A DNA stretch of 64,000 nucleotides from Nocardioides mesophilus (lineage in GTDB: Bacteria; Actinomycetota; Actinomycetes; Propionibacteriales; Nocardioidaceae), in contig NZ_CP060713.1 in the NCBI RefSeq assembly GCF_014395785.1, positions 1,392,501-1,456,500 of the forward strand, given 5' to 3'. The notes under the pieces are model-generated. The model worked only from the letters and a program-made list of their open reading frames with translations. It had not been told where the DNA came from and did not search any database. Positions 12,944 through 43,740 of the stretch are shown piece after piece (the first letter of the stretch is position 1; each line of letters opens with the position of its first letter). The position numbers and the translations under genes were made by a program.

Positions 12944-14439
12944 TCACCGGCTCATGTGGGAGGGCGAGTCCAGGAGGCAGACGACCATCCGGACGAACAG
13001 GTAGCGGACGAGCGGATGGTCCTTGGTGACGATCTCGCCGGGCGCGCGGCCGGTGGCCTGGCAGACCGCCTTGAGGTCCCGGGAGGTCGACCCCCGGCCG
13101 AGCACCATCCGGCACATGTGGTCGACGTACTCGTCCAGCCGGAGCCGTCGCTGCGGGAGCCACCAGCGCGCCGTCTTGTACGTCGCGTCGACCTTCGGGT
13201 AGTAGCCGCCGGCCATGTTCCAGTGCATCCGGAACGAGCCGAGCATCCGGGAGGCCGACGCCCAGTCGGCGTTGCGCTCCGGAGCCCCGTCGGGGCGTGG
13301 CCACTGCCAGAGCAGGATTCCCTTGTGCGCATAGGCGATGGCCCGGGCGAAGGACTCGTTGCGGGTCGGCGTGTGCACCTCGACCTGCAGCACCCGGGCG
13401 GTCGCCACCAGGTCGTCGACGGTGTTGCGGACCTTCCGGCCCGCCGAGCCGACGAACTCCGGGTGGATGACCAGCTGCCGCAGCATCGCGGTGATGTCGG
13501 TGCCCGAGGAGAGGTACGTCGCGGCCAACACCTCGACCAGCGCGTCGGAGGGGGTGTCGGAGACGAAGCGCAGCGCCAGCTTCCGGGCGATGGTGCGCGC
13601 CGTGGCCGGGTGGTTGGCCAGGAAGCGCAGGTAGCGCTCGGCGAGCTCGCGGCCGTCGGAGGCGGCGTTGGCGTCGCTGAACTCGAGCACGGTGACCGGT
13701 CCGGTGGTGTGCTTGGCCTGGTCGTAGAAGACCGCCCAGTCGGTGGTGGTGCCGACCGTCCAGCCGCTCAGGATCTTGGCCGAGTCCTTGACCATCGCCT
13801 CGGTGTAGCCCGAGGCCCGGCCCACCGTGTGCAGCTCGAGCAGCTCGCGTCCGTGGTTCTCGTTGGGGGCGCCCTTGATCGAGCGGAAGTTGTCGAGGTA
13901 GAGAGCATCGAGGGGTGCAGCGTGCACGCGAGCAGCAGGTCCTCGAACCGGCCGAGGGCGTGCTCGCGGATCGTCGCGTCGTACTCGCAGCGCGCGGCGA
14001 ACCACGAGCCGCCGTCCAGCGGGATGTGCAGGTGGTTGGACCAGAAGTCGACCATGGTCTCGAGGACCTGGCGGCGGGAGTAGACCCGGCGCAGCATGGT
14101 GCGGCAGCCGAGGTCGCGGGCGTGCTCGAAGGCGCCACGGATCTTGGCCTGCTGGCGCTCGGACTTCAGCGTCGGGGACCAGAGCAGCTCGGGGAACCAG
14201 CTCTCGATCGCGGCGACCTTCGACGTCTCCGGCACCGACCCGGGTCGGAGCTGGGCGTCCAGCCACGGCGCGGCGCCACCGGCGTCGCGCATCTGCTGCC
14301 AGGTCGACCGGGAGTAGCCGCAGCCCAGGCGGTTCATCAGGTGCAGCTCGTAAGGCGCGGGCATCTTGGTGTCGCGATAGGGCCGCGGCGCGTACGTCGT
14401 CGCGCCCAGCACCCGCAGCGCCAGGTCGTGCGTCGGCAT
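12944..14439 (-). pseudogene. DUF1800 family protein, frameshifted
   Basis: A DUF1800 protein split between two frames. The first part starts at ATG 14439 (behind GGAGGTGG) with LALRVLGATTYAPRPY, MNRLGCGYSRSTWQQM and LETMVDFWSNHLHIPL, and proceeds to LLACTLHPSML near 13905. The remainder continues in another frame as LYLDNFRSIKGAPNENHGRE and the conserved ELLELHTVG segment through to 12944. The join is at 13901-13905 (GAGAG), where one missing base explains the shift. Together about 498 residues would be restored, normal for the family. Either a true pseudogene or a sequencing deletion; the frames are otherwise intact, which favours an error or a very recent lesion. It is the upstream partner of the DUF1501 gene. 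Confidence 0.85.
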
Positions 14440-38911: not shown

Positions 38912-38973
38912 AAAAATCGTCGGTCGATCCGACGACGGCACCGATCGACCGATCGGCAAGGTCGATCGGTGCC
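38912..38973 (-). terminator. Two tandem terminators after the permease-ureohydrolase operon
   Basis: First a 14-bp perfect stem (38937-38950 with 38960-38973, nine-base loop) directly after the PIN gene stop, then a second stem TCGTCGG/CCGACGA (38917-38923 with 38929-38935) followed on the minus strand by five Ts (38912-38916). The second is a textbook intrinsic terminator. They insulate this operon from the sigma factor gene. Confidence 0.85.
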
Positions 38974-38975
38974 GC

Positions 38976-39371
38976 TCAGTGCAGCGCCTCCACCGGGGCG
39001 ACGGCGACCAGGGCCTTCACCGTCTCGGCGAGCCGGGTGTCGAGCGTGACGAAGGCGTCTGCCTGCAGCTGGGTCAGGGCGACGTACTCCGCCGTCAGCG
39101 TGTCGGGCCAGCCGAGCCGGTCCGCGACCTTCCAGGCGGTCCTCTGCAGCACCCGGTCGCCGAGCAGGCGCAGGTTCAGCCCGCGCACGTGGTCGAGCCG
39201 GCGCCCAGCCTCCTTCTCGTCCAGCTCCCCGCGGCGGACCGACTGGTAGAGCATTGAGAGCACCTGCGAGCGGAGCAGCGTCGGCGCGAGCAGCTGGTGC
39301 TCCGCCGCGACCACGGCCTGTTCCTGGGCCAGCCGGAGCGCGACGTCCGGGCCGATCACGAACCGGGTCAT
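38976..39371 (-). CDS. PIN-domain protein (VapC-like) without visible antitoxin
   Basis: A 131-residue protein of the PIN ribonuclease fold. It starts [14 protein letters not shown] (first acidic ligand), has a middle ELDEKEAGRRLDHV helix region and ends with TAEYVALTQLQADAFVTLDTRLAETV, the typical second acidic cluster. No VapB-like antitoxin is next to it; instead its ATG overlaps the stop of the SnoaL-like gene (ATGA), tying it to the metabolic operon. The metal ligands look complete, so nuclease activity is possible but not shown. Confidence 0.8.
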   Translation of the reverse strand: MTRFVIGPDVALRLAQEQAVVAAEHQLLAPTLLRSQVLSMLYQSVRRGELDEKEAGRRLDHVRGLNLRLLGDRVLQRTAWKVADRLGWPDTLTAEYVALTQLQADAFVTLDTRLAETVKALVAVAPVEALH

Positions 39372-39796
39372 CCCAGCGTCGCCTCGCCCGGGTCGGCCGG
39401 GGACGGGGACAGGTGCTCGTGGACCGCGAGCCACCGGCCGTCGGTCTGCCGGGCGAAGACGATCGTCTCGCGCTCGTCGAGCCACTGCCGCTCGCCGTCG
39501 GCCTGCACCACGGTGAGGACCCGGTGGGTGAAGACCGCGCTCTCGCCGTGCACCCGGACCCTGCCGTCCAAGGAGGTGCACGAGCTGACCTGGAAGCCGG
39601 CGTCGCGCTCCCACGACGCCCACAGCCGCTCGTAGGCGACACGTGAGTTCAGCGGCTCCGGCACGGTGTAGAACACGAACGTCGCGTCGGGGGTGAAGCT
39701 GCCGAAGTAGGCGTCGCGGTCGTGCCGGCCGAAGGCGTGGACGAGGTCGGACGCGGCGGCGAGCACCTGCTTCTCGACGTTCTCGACGGGGGTCAT
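39368..39796 (-). CDS. SnoaL-like / DUF4440-type protein
   Basis: A 142-residue NTF2-fold protein. The family pattern is visible: [20 protein letters not shown] at residues 18-37, FVFYTVPEP, then [13 protein letters not shown] and [18 protein letters not shown] at the end. Members bind small substrates in a cone-shaped pocket and are often enzymes or folding partners in degradation pathways. It overlaps the ureohydrolase gene by four bases upstream and the PIN gene by four downstream. Confidence 0.85.
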
Positions 39797-40800
39797 GTGG
39801 CGCTCCTCGGGGCGAGAGCCGACAGCAGCTCGTAGGTGACGTGCGAGGCGGCGATCCCGGTCACCTGCGCGTGGTCGTAGGCCGGTGAGACCTCGACGAC
39901 GTCGGCCCCGACGAGGTTCAGCCCGCCGAAGGCGCGCAGCACCGCGAGCAGCTCCCGGCTGGTCATGCCGCCGGCCTCGGGGGTGCCGGTGCCGGGCGCG
40001 AAGGCCGGGTCCAGCACGTCGATGTCGACCGAGACGTAGACCGGTCGTTCGCCGACCCGGGCTTGGATCCGCTCTACGACGCCGCGGGCGCCGAGGTCGT
40101 CGATCTCGACGCTCGGCACGATCTGGAAGCCGAGGTCCGCGTCGTCGACGAGGTCCTGGCGGGAGTACAACGGCCCGCGGGTGCCGACGTGCAGGCACCC
40201 CGACCGGTCGAGCAGCCCCTCCTCCGAGGCCCGACGGAACGGAGTGCCGTGGGTGTAGGCGGCGCCGAAGTAGGTGTCCCAGGTGTCGAGGTGCGCGTCG
40301 AAGTGGACGACCGCCACCGGCCCGTGCTTGGCGTGCATCGCCCGCAGCAGCGGCAGCGCGATGGTGTGGTCGCCGCCGATCGTGACCAGCCGCTCCGAGC
40401 GCTCGAGCAGGTGCCGGGCGCCGGCCTCGATCGCCGCGATCGCCTCCTCGATGTCGAACGGGTTCACCGCGAGGTCGCCGGCGTCGACGACCTGCTGGCC
40501 GGCGAACGGGTCGACGTCGACGGCCGGGTTGTGCGGCCGCAGCAGCCGCGAGGACTCCCGCACGTGCGACGGACCGAACCGCGCTCCCGGCCGGTAGGAG
40601 ACGCCCGCGTCGAACGGCACCCCGACCACCGCGACGTCGACGTCGGAGACCTCGTCGATGCGGGGCAGGGTCGCGAAGGTGGCCGGGCCCGCGAAGCGGG
40701 GTACGAGCGTCGCGTCGACCTGGCCGACCCGGCCGCCGGCCCGCACCCGGGGCAGGCCCGGCGAGGCGGGCGACGACGGATCGGCGGCGGGGTCAGCCAT
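39793..40800 (-). CDS. Agmatinase-family ureohydrolase (SpeB-like)
   Basis: A 335-residue manganese enzyme cleaving urea from a guanidino compound. All metal motifs are present: [23 protein letters not shown] and [20 protein letters not shown]. The start at 40800 (MADPAADP) overlaps the permease end by eight bases. The family includes agmatinases, guanidinobutyrases and related enzymes; the substrate is not readable from these motifs. Together with a nucleobase-type permease and a cyclase-family hydrolase it suggests import and breakdown of a guanidino or ureido compound. Confidence 0.92.
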
Positions 40801-42373
40801 CGGCTCTCCTCGAGGCAGCGCTGCGGGCACGGACCCGGTGCACGGAGGCACCGGCGTTGTCGAGGATCTCAGGCTCCTCGACCTCGGCGGCAGGCACCCA
40901 TCGCGGACCGTCCGGCCCGAACACGTAGCGCGGCTCCGGGACGACGTACAGCAGCACCGTGTAGACGACCGCGGCGACGCCGATCGCGACCAGCAGGCTG
41001 AGGTCGATGCCGCCGGCGGCGTTGCGGAACGGCCCCTCGATCAGCGGCGGGTAGTTGGCGAACAGCAGGCCCAGCACGGCGGCCGGGATCCAGGCGGCCA
41101 TGCCCCGCCAGTTGACCCCGGAGCTGAACCAGTAGGCGCCGCCGGTGCGGCCCTGGTTGAACACCTGCAGGTCGACCTCGCGGTAGTAGCCGCGGCGTAC
41201 GACGTAGCCGATCGTCATGATGATCATCCACGGCGTGGTGCAGATGACGATCGCACCGATGAACGCGTTCACGCTGGCGATCAGGTCGAAGGCGAGCCGG
41301 CCGACCAGGATGAACACGAACGCGAGCGAACCGATCACCAGCGAGGCCTGCACCCGCGAGAGCCGCGGGAACACCGAGGAGAAGTCCAGGCCGGTGCCGT
41401 AGAGCGAGGTGATGCCGGTCGAGAGCCCGCCGAGGAAGGCGACCACCATGAGCAGCAGGGCGTACCACAGGGGCGAGAGGTTGATCAGGGCCACGATGTA
41501 GTCGGCCTCACCGGCGACCAGGGTCGCGGTGGCGACGCCGAACAGGAACGGCACCAGCGTCATCGCTTGGGCTCCGAGGGTGGCGCCGAGCAGCGACTTC
41601 ACCGAGGTGCCGGTGGGGATGTAGCGGGACCAGTCGCCGAGGAAGGCGCCGAACGAGATCGGGTTGCCCATCACGATCAGCGCGGACAGCACGAACGTCG
41701 GCCAGAACGAGCCGAGCGCGTAGGCGCCCGGCCCCGGGTCGTAGCCGAGGTCGAGCGATCCGGAGTAGGCCACGCCGCCGAGCAGGATCAGGATCGTGTT
41801 GCCGAAGACCACGATCTTGTTCACCAGCAGCATGAACGCGTAGCCGTAGACGACCACCACGATGACGATCCCGCCGAGAACGGCGTAGATCGTGCCGCGC
41901 AGCAGGTCGGAGTCCTCGACCCCGGCCAGCCGCACCAGTGCTCCGACCAGCGCGTCACCGCTCACCCAGACCGAGATCGAGTAGAACGCGATCGCGGTGA
42001 GCAGCGACAGGAACGAGCCGAGCACCCGGCCGCGGACGCCGAAGTGCGCACCCGAGCTGACCGCGTTGTTGGTCCCGGTGATCGGCCCGAACAGCCCCAT
42101 CGGCATCAGGATCAGCGCGCCGACCAGCACCCCCAGCACGGTGGCGGCGACCGCCTCCCACAACGAGAGCCCGAGCAGGATCGGGAAGGTGCCGAGGATG
42201 ACGGTGGCGAAGGTGTTCGCGCCGCCGAACTGGATCCGGAACAGGTCCAGCGGCCGGGAGTGCCGGTGCTCGGGCGGGATCGTGTCGATCCCGTGCTGCT
42301 CGACCTCGGTGGCCTTCGGCCGGCGGATCTCCGGCGTGGCCCCCCGGCCGGCGTCGTACGGTTCTGGTCGCAT
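40793..42373 (-). CDS. NCS1-type permease (cytosine/purine/allantoin family)
   Basis: A 526-residue transporter with about twelve hydrophobic segments. The N-terminal part ends in [20 protein letters not shown], and [20 protein letters not shown] and [20 protein letters not shown] are the conserved substrate and sodium-site regions of NCS1 carriers. The ATG at 42373 follows GGAGGGACC. Substrates of this family are nucleobases, hydantoins, allantoin and, in some clades, thiamine or guanidino compounds. First gene of the four-gene operon. Confidence 0.9.
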
Positions 42374-42433
42374 CGCCAGGTCCCTCCATGACGGCCGCGG
42401 TGCCCGCGGCGCTGCACGCAGGCTAGGCATGAG

Positions 42434-42448
42434 TTGCATCACATGCAA
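42434..42448. promoter_or_regulatory. 15-bp palindrome between permease and cyclase genes
   Basis: TTGCATCACATGCAA is a perfect palindrome with a three-base centre, in the 87-base divergent promoter region. AATAGTT just after it could be a -10 of the cyclase gene. A likely target of the XRE-cupin regulator encoded at 43126 (inference from position). Confidence 0.55.
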
Positions 42449-42460
42449 TAGTTGTTTCCC

Positions 42461-43129
42461 ATGAGGGTCACTCGCATCGTGGACCTGTCTGTACCGGTGG
42501 GGCCGGGGACGGTCGTCTACCCCGGCGACCCCAGCCCCGAGCTGCAGGTGCACAGCACCATCGAGCGGGACGGCTTCAACCTGCTGCAGGTGAGCATGGG
42601 CTCGCAGTCCGGCACCCACGTCGACGCCCCGTTCCACTTCGACGCCGACACCCCGCGCATCGACGAGCTGCCGCTCGAGCGGTTCGCGGGCACCGCGGTC
42701 GTGGTCGACGCGACCGCCGTCGGGGAGCGCGGCCGGATCACCTGGGAGCACGTCGCCCCGGTGGCCGACCGGCTCGGCCCCGGCACGGTGGTGCTGCTGC
42801 ACACCGGATGGGCGCAGCGGTACGGCGCGCCGGCGTACTTCGCCAACCCGTTCCTCGACGCGGACGCCTGCCGCCGGATGCTCGACCTCGGCGTGCGCGC
42901 GTTCTGCATCGACGCGATCAACCTCGACGAGACCCCCGACGACGACCACCCCGGTGAGGGCTTCCCGGTGCACCACCTGATCGCCGCGGCGGGCGGGGTG
43001 ATCGGGGAGAACTTCCGCAACTTCGAGGCCCTCGACTGGCCGGACCCCTTCGTCACCTTCTTCCCGATCGCGCTCGAAGGAGCCGACGGGGCGCCGGTGC
43101 GCGCGGTCGCGATGGAGCTGCAGCCGTGA
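42461..43129 (+). CDS. Cyclase-family amidohydrolase (kynurenine formamidase-like)
   Basis: A 222-residue enzyme of the cyclase family, metal-dependent hydrolases acting on formamides, cyclic amides and isatin-type rings. The signature is SGTHVDAPFHF (residues 47-57); VVLLHTGWAQRYG and VHHLIAAAGGVIGENFRN are also typical. ATG 42461 is chosen over an upstream TTG because it starts the conserved strand and is in leaderless range of a -10. Divergent from the permease operon and coupled (GTGA) to the regulator gene. Confidence 0.88.
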   Translation: MRVTRIVDLSVPVGPGTVVYPGDPSPELQVHSTIERDGFNLLQVSMGSQSGTHVDAPFHFDADTPRIDELPLERFAGTAVVVDATAVGERGRITWEHVAPVADRLGPGTVVLLHTGWAQRYGAPAYFANPFLDADACRRMLDLGVRAFCIDAINLDETPDDDHPGEGFPVHHLIAAAGGVIGENFRNFEALDWPDPFVTFFPIALEGADGAPVRAVAMELQP

Positions 43130-43740
43130 GCGCCCCCGACGCGGGCGGCCCCACGCCCGCGGACGACCTCCCCGGCACTCCCGCCCGCGCCGAGCGGGCG
43201 CCGGTGCGGATCGGCGCCCGGCTGCGCGCCGCCCGGCTCTCGCAGAAGATGACGATGGAGCAGGTGGCCGCCGCCAGCGGCCTGACCAAGGGCTTCATCA
43301 GCCGGCTCGAGCGCGACAGCGCGTCTCCCTCGGTGGCCTCGCTGGTGGCGGTCTGCGAGGTCATCGGGCTCCGGGTGGGCGCCCTGTTCGACCCGCCGGA
43401 GACGGCGGTGGTCCGGGCGGGCGCGGGCAAGCGGATCAACTTCGGCGCCAGCGGTGCGGTCGAGCGGCTGCTCAGCCCCGGCACGCAGCAGCAGATCGAG
43501 GTCATCCACACGGTGCTCGAGGGCGCCGGCCACGGTGGCGACGAGCTCTACACCCTCGACTGCGACACCGAGTTCGTGTACGTCGTCGGCGGCTCGCTCG
43601 AGATCGTCCTGGAGGACCAGCAGGTGACGCTGGCCGCGGGCGACGCGATGACCTTCCCCGGCCGGACCCCGCACACCTGGCGCAACACCTCGGCCACCGA
43701 GCCGGCGGAGGTGCTGTGGGTGATGTCGCCGGCGCCCTGA
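43126..43740 (+). CDS. XRE-family regulator with C-terminal cupin domain
   Basis: A 204-residue transcription factor. Residues 24-85 contain an XRE helix-turn-helix (IGARLRAARLSQKMTMEQVA then SGLTKGFISRLERD), and residues 115-200 a cupin barrel (EFVYVVGGSLEIVLEDQQVT, then MTFPGRTPHTWRN), the fold that senses small metabolites in regulators such as PuuR. The N-terminal 23 residues are Pro/Ala-rich. The GTG at 43126 overlaps the cyclase stop, so it is the natural local regulator of both operons. Confidence 0.9.
   Translation: MSAPDAGGPTPADDLPGTPARAERAPVRIGARLRAARLSQKMTMEQVAAASGLTKGFISRLERDSASPSVASLVAVCEVIGLRVGALFDPPETAVVRAGAGKRINFGASGAVERLLSPGTQQQIEVIHTVLEGAGHGGDELYTLDCDTEFVYVVGGSLEIVLEDQQVTLAAGDAMTFPGRTPHTWRNTSATEPAEVLWVMSPAP

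Follow-up and report, generated by a model that had tools for sequence, protein, structure and literature searches.

A conserved five-gene module of Nocardioides mesophilus with a possible role in guanidino-acid catabolism

Which compound is handled by a divergent gene group of Nocardioides mesophilus that joins a ureohydrolase (UH) to a permease, a second hydrolase, a small SnoaL-like protein, a regulator and a PIN-like gene? The locus lies in a stretch of 64,000 nucleotides of contig NZ_CP060713.1 (positions 1,392,501 to 1,456,500), called the window below. Five of the genes form a conserved module: those for the NCS1 permease, the UH, the SnoaL protein, a cyclase-family amidohydrolase (here called the cyclase) and an XRE-cupin regulator. 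With moderate confidence, we read them as a self-regulated module for the breakdown of a guanidino acid, with 4-guanidinobutyrate, or its amide or lactam, as the most likely compound. Nitrogen compounds with a guanidino group, both natural and man-made, are abundant, and the enzymes for their uptake and breakdown are still being sorted out.

The six genes, their strands and the overlaps between them (permease/UH 8, UH/SnoaL 4, SnoaL/PIN 4 and cyclase/XRE 4 bases) were found as the initial annotation of this DNA had put them, and the palindrome that it had placed in the shared promoter is present (Table 1). The Pfam domains of all five module proteins exceeded their cut-offs.

A scan of genomes with a cyclase profile yielded 247 loci, of which the best 80 were used. 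The cyclase gene was called in 77 of them, and the other three were dropped. Three contigs in these counts also appear under other handles. Within six genes of the cyclase, a permease was found at 41 of the 77 loci, a UH at 25, a SnoaL gene at 25 and an XRE gene at 20. Permease, UH and SnoaL were all nearby at 16 of the 77 loci, and the XRE gene as well at 12. The module was found, with its gene order changed, in Nocardioidaceae, Microbacteriaceae, Geodermatophilaceae and Streptomyces, with partial copies elsewhere. The cyclase loci include Cryobacterium, Microcella, Klenkia, Blastococcus, Nocardioides, Marmoricola and Streptomyces.

The layout of the window (XRE-cyclase / permease-UH-SnoaL) is kept in the genus and family genomes G002, G004, G006 and G196, and also in G088 and G127. 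The module is divided between two contigs in G031 and has a different gene order in G019. The order UH-permease-cyclase-SnoaL occurs on a single strand in Streptomyces (loci L155 and L159), and in Ornithinimicrobium (L129) the UH, NCS1 and cyclase genes are followed by two short-chain dehydrogenase genes and SnoaL. A type-B layout (L080, L084, L085 and L086) comprises SnoaL-permease-UH and an AsnC-type regulator without the cyclase, in two cases with an aldehyde dehydrogenase. As the order varies by lineage, the linkage appears to be selected and not inherited synteny. The initial annotation had proposed six genes as the neighbourhood to look for; five of them proved to be conserved and the PIN gene did not.

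The association was also seen at the level of whole genomes. Among 197 family genomes (assumed to be the identical set in both searches, as the handles agree), the cyclase subfamily was found in 10 (E 1e-45) and the UH in 29 (E 1e-60). The UH was present in nine of the ten cyclase-bearing genomes vs 20 of the remaining 187 (Fisher p 9e-8, kinship ignored). The module on one contig labelled Spirochaetaceae (L091) is of the actinobacterial type, and its UH falls among those of Actinomycetota, so the contig may be mis-binned.

The substrate type of the UH was approached through its relatives. The solved chains nearest to it are PAH 1gq6, GbuA 3nio and GpuA 3nip, which are a proclavaminate amidino hydrolase, a guanidinobutyrase and a guanidinopropionase, respectively; agmatinases rank behind. 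The protein falls within the arginase-family fold, and its binuclear metal motifs, including DIDVLDP, align with those of GbuA, GpuA and PAH. In the available part of PMC9772407, R72 of GbuA, contributed by the neighbouring subunit, is proposed to contact the carboxylate of guanidinobutyrate. R88 of the window UH aligns with this residue, and all 41 distinct UH rows have an arginine at the position. Read from the alignment, it is W in Escherichia coli SpeB (7lol) and A in a Burkholderia 'agmatinase' (4dz4). Since two distant Klenkia paralogues also have R there and PAH has H, the position is no perfect marker. A further motif of the UH reads GTPFRRA, as in GpuA; it is GTTFRRA in GbuA and GTMFYTA in SpeB. 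The SpeB-like specificity residues were therefore not found in the UH at either place. The UH is probably a guanidino-acid hydrolase and not an agmatinase; agmatine is the less likely substrate, judged by residues and gene contexts.

The UH tree, from which four rows were left out (three duplicates and one truncated), placed 46 rows in one group (support 100/99), with module UHs mixed with those of other contexts. The group includes UHs with neighbouring thiamine pyrophosphate (TPP) enzymes in Cryobacterium (L089, L090 and L099), in G010 and G036 and on an Arthrobacter plasmid, and it also takes in the UH of a Tsukamurella plasmid (L216). Arginine is converted to 4-guanidinobutyrate either by a transaminase and ketoarginine decarboxylase or by an oxygenase and an amidase via 4-guanidinobutyramide. 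The TPP enzyme beside the UH in L089 exceeds the cut-off for 5-guanidino-2-oxopentanoate decarboxylase (515 vs 500). The Tsukamurella operon comprises the UH, an amino-acid permease, a CN_hydrolase (PF00795) and a flavin amine oxidase (PF01593), and an XRE gene adjoins it. No NCBIfam equivalog was confirmed for its CN_hydrolase and flavin amine oxidase; by its gene content, the operon would fit the oxygenase route through 4-guanidinobutyramide. UHs of the same clade thus occur in both route types (L089 and L216). The module of the window differs from these routes in having an importer and a cyclase-family hydrolase, and no ketoarginine decarboxylase above the cut-off was found in the source genome (301 vs 500).

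Other ureohydrolase genes and contexts were seen in passing. Near 2192706 (L002), the source genome encodes another ureohydrolase, with 41% identity. Klenkia likewise has an additional and distant one (39-40% identity), separated from the module by a few genes (L113 and L116). In a Paenarthrobacter region, a UH stands without any of the module genes, and an Embleya plasmid region has no annotation. Two UHs of the 18-row group to which the window UH belongs (L075 and L078, in G032 and G067) adjoin an apparent molybdenum hydroxylase large subunit, as judged by eye. L078 has an ABC transporter too, and the cyclase was not seen at either locus.

The cyclase profile is nearest to kynurenine formamidase 4cz1 (E 2e-29). 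Its fold family (PF04199) and metal-site motif are common to kynurenine formamidase and isatin hydrolase; the motifs GTHVDAPxHF and HH...EN, shared with 4cz1, contain the residues that we take to be the metal ligands. The cyclase was rejected as a KynB because it scores 80.5 bits against TIGR03035, far below the equivalog cut-off of 223, and unlike KynB it has guanidino-related genomic partners. It is probably a metal-dependent amide or lactam hydrolase. Amide-hydrolysing enzymes of unrelated families recur beside the UH, namely a nitrilase in L216 and amidase-family enzymes in L081 and L207, the latter two passing no curated cut-off. As these unrelated enzymes occupy a like position, we propose that the cyclase acts on an amide or lactam and thereby sets the guanidino acid free. 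A second cyclase-family gene of the source genome (34%) lies near 2083488 (L032).

Several neighbours belong to the metabolism of 4-aminobutyrate (GABA). A GABA transaminase above its cut-off stands beside the cyclase in L105 (769 vs 639) and beside permease-cyclase-SnoaL-UH in L202 (532 vs 507). Aminobutyraldehyde dehydrogenases above the cut-off were found near permease-cyclase in L145 (689 vs 615) and near permease-SnoaL in L200 (683 vs 615). A four-carbon guanidino acid is backed by the neighbours, and a three-carbon one is a possible alternative.

By its gene linkage, the SnoaL protein belongs with the UH and the permease as a conserved, translationally coupled partner. Wherever the UH and SnoaL genes were adjacent on one strand (20 pairs, 17 distinct contigs), they overlapped by exactly 4 bases. 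The SnoaL subfamily (E 1e-15) was found in 13 of 396 genomes across the phylum, source genome included. Outside the source genome there were 13 SnoaL loci; the gene was called in 11, and L209 and L211 were dropped. At six of the 11 loci (L202, L204, L206, L207, L208 and L210), a UH with 46-75% identity to that of the window lies within five genes. L200, L201 and L203 have the permease and/or the cyclase and no UH, while L205 and L212 have neither.

The AlphaFold2 model of the SnoaL protein has a mean pLDDT of 93.8. CaMKII hub domains were the best PDB matches of a 26-member SnoaL profile (2ux0, E 1.5e-5), and the CaMKII hub 5ig4 was the top Foldseek match of the model (E 1.1e-8). In VIA-align, the highest places went to other bacterial NTF2 proteins (3d9r, Z 17.9 vs 16.7 for hub 6of9). 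As the hubs were about one Z lower there, fold comparison does not single out the hub. The CaMKII alpha hub binds gamma-hydroxybutyrate (GHB) via H395, R433, R453 and R469, as given in the available part of PMC12148480. None of these four residues is shared by the SnoaL protein, which has E56 (or Y55), L94, I112 and L129 at the aligned positions, in an alignment that is approximate at about 20% identity. Binding of GHB or GABA via the CaMKII residues was accordingly rejected. Invariant in the 26 SnoaL members are E108, E110, E127, H91, H126, H128, W59, W62 and Y55. The strand register relative to R453 (aligned to I112) predicts that E108 and E110 point into the cavity; a pocket of this kind, acidic and aromatic, would suit a guanidinium or an amine. 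From here one may speculate that the NTF2 protein is a dedicated component of guanidino-acid catabolism, either a CaMKII-hub-like scaffold or an enzyme. Glu108, Glu110, Glu127 and the aromatics would form an acidic guanidinium or amine pocket that holds the substrate or channels it between the permease and the UH. Paired with a cyclase whose substrate is a guanidino amide or lactam, it would make up an unrecognised route by which actinobacteria take up a natural guanidino compound. We give this idea a small chance.

The permease belongs to NCS1 family PF02133; against TIGR00800 it scores 82.8 bits, below the cut-off of 353. It was found beside the UH, SnoaL or cyclase across relatives and is the probable importer of the substrate. 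Among NCBIfam models, PuuR comes closest to the XRE-cupin protein, although the score of 53.9 bits is below the cut-off of 211. The palindrome TTGCATCACATGCAA (TTGCAT-N3-ATGCAA) sits in the divergent promoter, and the simplest explanation is that it is probably the operator of the XRE-cupin regulator. The pattern TTGCATNNNATGCAA has a single occurrence in the 4.49-Mb genome, and the reversed-pattern control gave 0. Relatives have a similar site, GTTGC-N7-GCAAC, directly ahead of the cyclase or XRE gene, and in most cases another GTTG comes after it. Allowing ≤2 mismatches, it was found in 17 of 34 distinct divergent regions; the match of L099 lies inside a gene and is due to chance, and that of L091 overlaps a called gene start. 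A shuffle control on the original 36 regions gave a mean of 2.8 and a maximum of 8 matches. As the consensus was drawn from the same sequences, the count describes the site and does not prove it. Only the right half-site (ATGCAATAG) is well kept in several regions, e.g. L077, L079, L101 and L102. Read by eye, the palindrome shares bases with a possible -35 element of the permease operon on the minus strand (TTGCAT, 17 bases from TAGCCT); a promoter scan found no sigma-70 consensus. The single clean site offers a handle for induction assays.

Taken together, the following scheme is proposed. The NCS1 permease would bring in a guanidino compound, and the cyclase would open an amide or lactam bond to free the guanidino acid. 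The UH would split the latter into urea and an omega-amino acid, probably GABA, as its residues, phylogeny and neighbours suggest. GABA would reach central metabolism by a GABA transaminase; the source genome encodes one above the cut-off (562 vs 507), a long way from the module at 3.56 Mb. From the palindrome in the shared promoter, the XRE-cupin protein would govern the two divergent operons, and the NTF2-fold protein would be the coupled partner of the UH or the permease.

The initial annotation had seen an importer, a guanidino-hydrolysing enzyme and an amide- or lactam-type hydrolase under one local regulator, and this gained support. Its suggestion that the compound serves as a nitrogen source was weakened as far as urea is concerned. 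In the source genome, no urease alpha domain was found and no urea carboxylase above the curated cut-off (best 525 vs 1304). Breakdown of urea by the host was rejected on these two enzymes; other urea routes were not searched. Hence, barring another route, the cell probably uses the amino acid, the more likely usable product, and loses the urea.

Several results weigh against a guanidino acid as substrate, and some of them speak for other explanations. Only one of the three scanned TPP enzymes beside UHs passes the cut-off of 500; L083 (326) and L215 (314) miss it. The UH of L202, which has the GABA transaminase, falls outside the 46-row clade, no UH was found in the L105 genome at E 1e-40, and the aldehyde dehydrogenase of L084 scores below the cut-off for succinic semialdehyde dehydrogenase (SSADH). 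Moreover, the UH exceeds the cut-offs of two NCBIfam agmatinase models, TIGR01230 (235 vs 174) and PRK02190 (318 vs 302), both of them broad. The genes could accordingly be an operon for agmatine use, in which a true agmatinase forms putrescine and urea and the permease imports agmatine or a derivative. The likeness of the regulator to PuuR points the same way, as do genes for aminobutyraldehyde dehydrogenase and a polyamine-type ABC transporter beside several copies (L145, L150 and L160; the L145 dehydrogenase was scanned). Still, we consider agmatine use unlikely: the R at the GbuA R72 position and the motif GTPFRRA set the UH apart from SpeB, the UH subfamily occurs in arginine-to-guanidinobutyrate contexts, and the cyclase would have nothing to act on in agmatine, which lacks an amide. 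A further adverse point is the position of GbuA M161, which presumably sets substrate length. Like GpuA, the window UH has Tyr there (Y177) and not Met (Y in 39 and E in 2 of 41 UH rows), which leaves four and three carbons both in play.

This Tyr would suit a scheme in which a cyclic, nucleobase-like guanidine is imported, such as dihydro-isocytosine or a ring of the glycocyamidine or creatinine type. The cyclase would open the ring to a short guanidino acid, e.g. 3-guanidinopropionate, which the UH would convert to urea and beta-alanine or glycine. Rings like those of nucleobases are the typical cargo of NCS1 transporters, the cyclase relatives include the ring-opening isatin hydrolase, and a ribose-phosphate diphosphokinase (PRPP synthetase) gene adjoins cyclase-permease in L071 (G049), a locus without UH. 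We rate the cyclic substrate as rather unlikely, given that type-B operons have the permease and UH without the cyclase and that neighbours favour GABA over beta-alanine or glycine. The latter objection is weak, since GABA transaminases may accept beta-alanine. The counts of cyclase loci are also adverse, with no close permease at 36 and no nearby UH at 52 of the 77. The cyclase therefore has other uses, or its links are looser than in the window. In the extreme case, permease-cyclase and UH-SnoaL would be separate systems that often lie side by side, and seven Streptomyces loci with permease-cyclase and no adjacent UH would agree with this (L137, L139, L142, L146, L148, L149 and L158). All seven of these genomes, however, have a UH elsewhere. 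The UH was searched genome-wide for 27 of the 52 loci, and it was found elsewhere in the genome in 14 of 17 with a permease beside the cyclase vs 3 of 10 without (p 0.013). As SnoaL and permease also stand together in several layouts and a single regulator site lies between both operons, two separate systems seem very unlikely to us.

The catabolic module for a guanidino acid, the reading that we prefer, can be set beside known systems. GbuA and GpuA of Pseudomonas aeruginosa and human AGMAT/GDAH have the same ureohydrolase fold, metal motifs and arginine, the residue for which PMC9772407 proposes the carboxylate contact; the module adds an NCS1 permease, a cyclase, an NTF2 protein and an XRE-cupin regulator. 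A precedent for an NCS1 importer with ureohydrolases is the metformin hydrolase cluster metR2TR1ABCaCb, in which the NCS1-like importer MetT is encoded with them (PMC11271267, available part). That cluster depends on a pair of ureohydrolase subunits and on two proteins for nickel insertion, whereas the module has one UH; neither HypA/HypB-like nickel-insertion genes nor a second ureohydrolase subunit were found among the module genes. In Mycobacterium smegmatis under nitrogen limitation, an agmatinase and NCS1 permeases are induced, none of them linked together in the available part of PMC4617892.

The locus had been put forward as a candidate for an undescribed system, and this holds in part. 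The gene set as a unit was not found described in the open-licence literature, which misses most subscription papers; the topics covered were guanidinobutyrase and transporters, guanidinobutyramide, agmatinase with SnoaL or with cyclase/permease, and GlnR-agmatinase. Most of the chemistry, on the other hand, is of a known kind. Many actinobacterial 'agmatinase' (speB) annotations may be wrong, and the module offers two testable questions, namely the substrate of the cyclase and the role of the NTF2 protein.

Table 1. Genes and other features of the locus (positions in the window)
Feature	Position	Strand	Description
Inverted repeats 3' of the operon	38917-38974	-	Likely transcription end
PIN-like gene	38976-39371	-	131 aa; adjoining passenger, outside the module
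SnoaL (SnoaL_3, NTF2-fold) gene	39368-39796	-	142 aa; PF13474 48.5 bits
Ureohydrolase (UH; arginase/agmatinase family) gene	39793-40800	-	335 aa; PF00491 318 bits
NCS1 permease gene	40793-42373	-	526 aa; PF02133 179 bits vs cut-off 23.5
Palindrome TTGCAT-CAC-ATGCAA	42434-42448		Divergent promoter; probable XRE-cupin operator
Cyclase-family amidohydrolase gene	42461-43129	+	222 aa; PF04199 110 bits
XRE-cupin regulator gene	43126-43740	+	204 aa; GTG start; HTH_3 + Cupin_2

The PIN-like gene was rejected as a functional member of the module. It was absent within six genes of the cyclase at all 77 loci and was missing from all six congeners; homologues occur in other contexts without the module. 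The name given to it in the initial annotation was upheld. The protein itself has no Pfam match even at E<1. PF01850, however, was matched by five of ten scanned members of its family (best 6.9e-5), and the family profile matches 2fe1 in the PDB (E 6.4e-4), so the label is fair. Judged by its family, the window protein is a genuine but degenerate PIN protein. A VapC-type toxin-antitoxin pair was not recognised, as the upstream neighbour is the SnoaL gene and no antitoxin, and no shared small partner gene was seen beside PIN homologues in 10 loci. Solitary PIN-like genes without a constant neighbour occur in Nocardioidaceae and other families of the order (L171-L180); the L174 copy has an in-frame stop.

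Two inverted repeats lie downstream of the operon: one is perfect and 15 bp long (38936-38950 / 38960-38974), and the other, of 7 bp (38917-38923 / 38929-38935), has TTTTT next to it on the minus strand. A consensus terminator scan called 0 (0.7 expected) despite these repeats. The tandem terminators noted earlier are therefore a by-eye observation only, of which the two inverted repeats stand. Elsewhere in the window, at 12944-14439 on the minus strand, the overlapping frames 12944-13927 and 13768-14439 resemble halves of one protein, which may indicate a frameshift.

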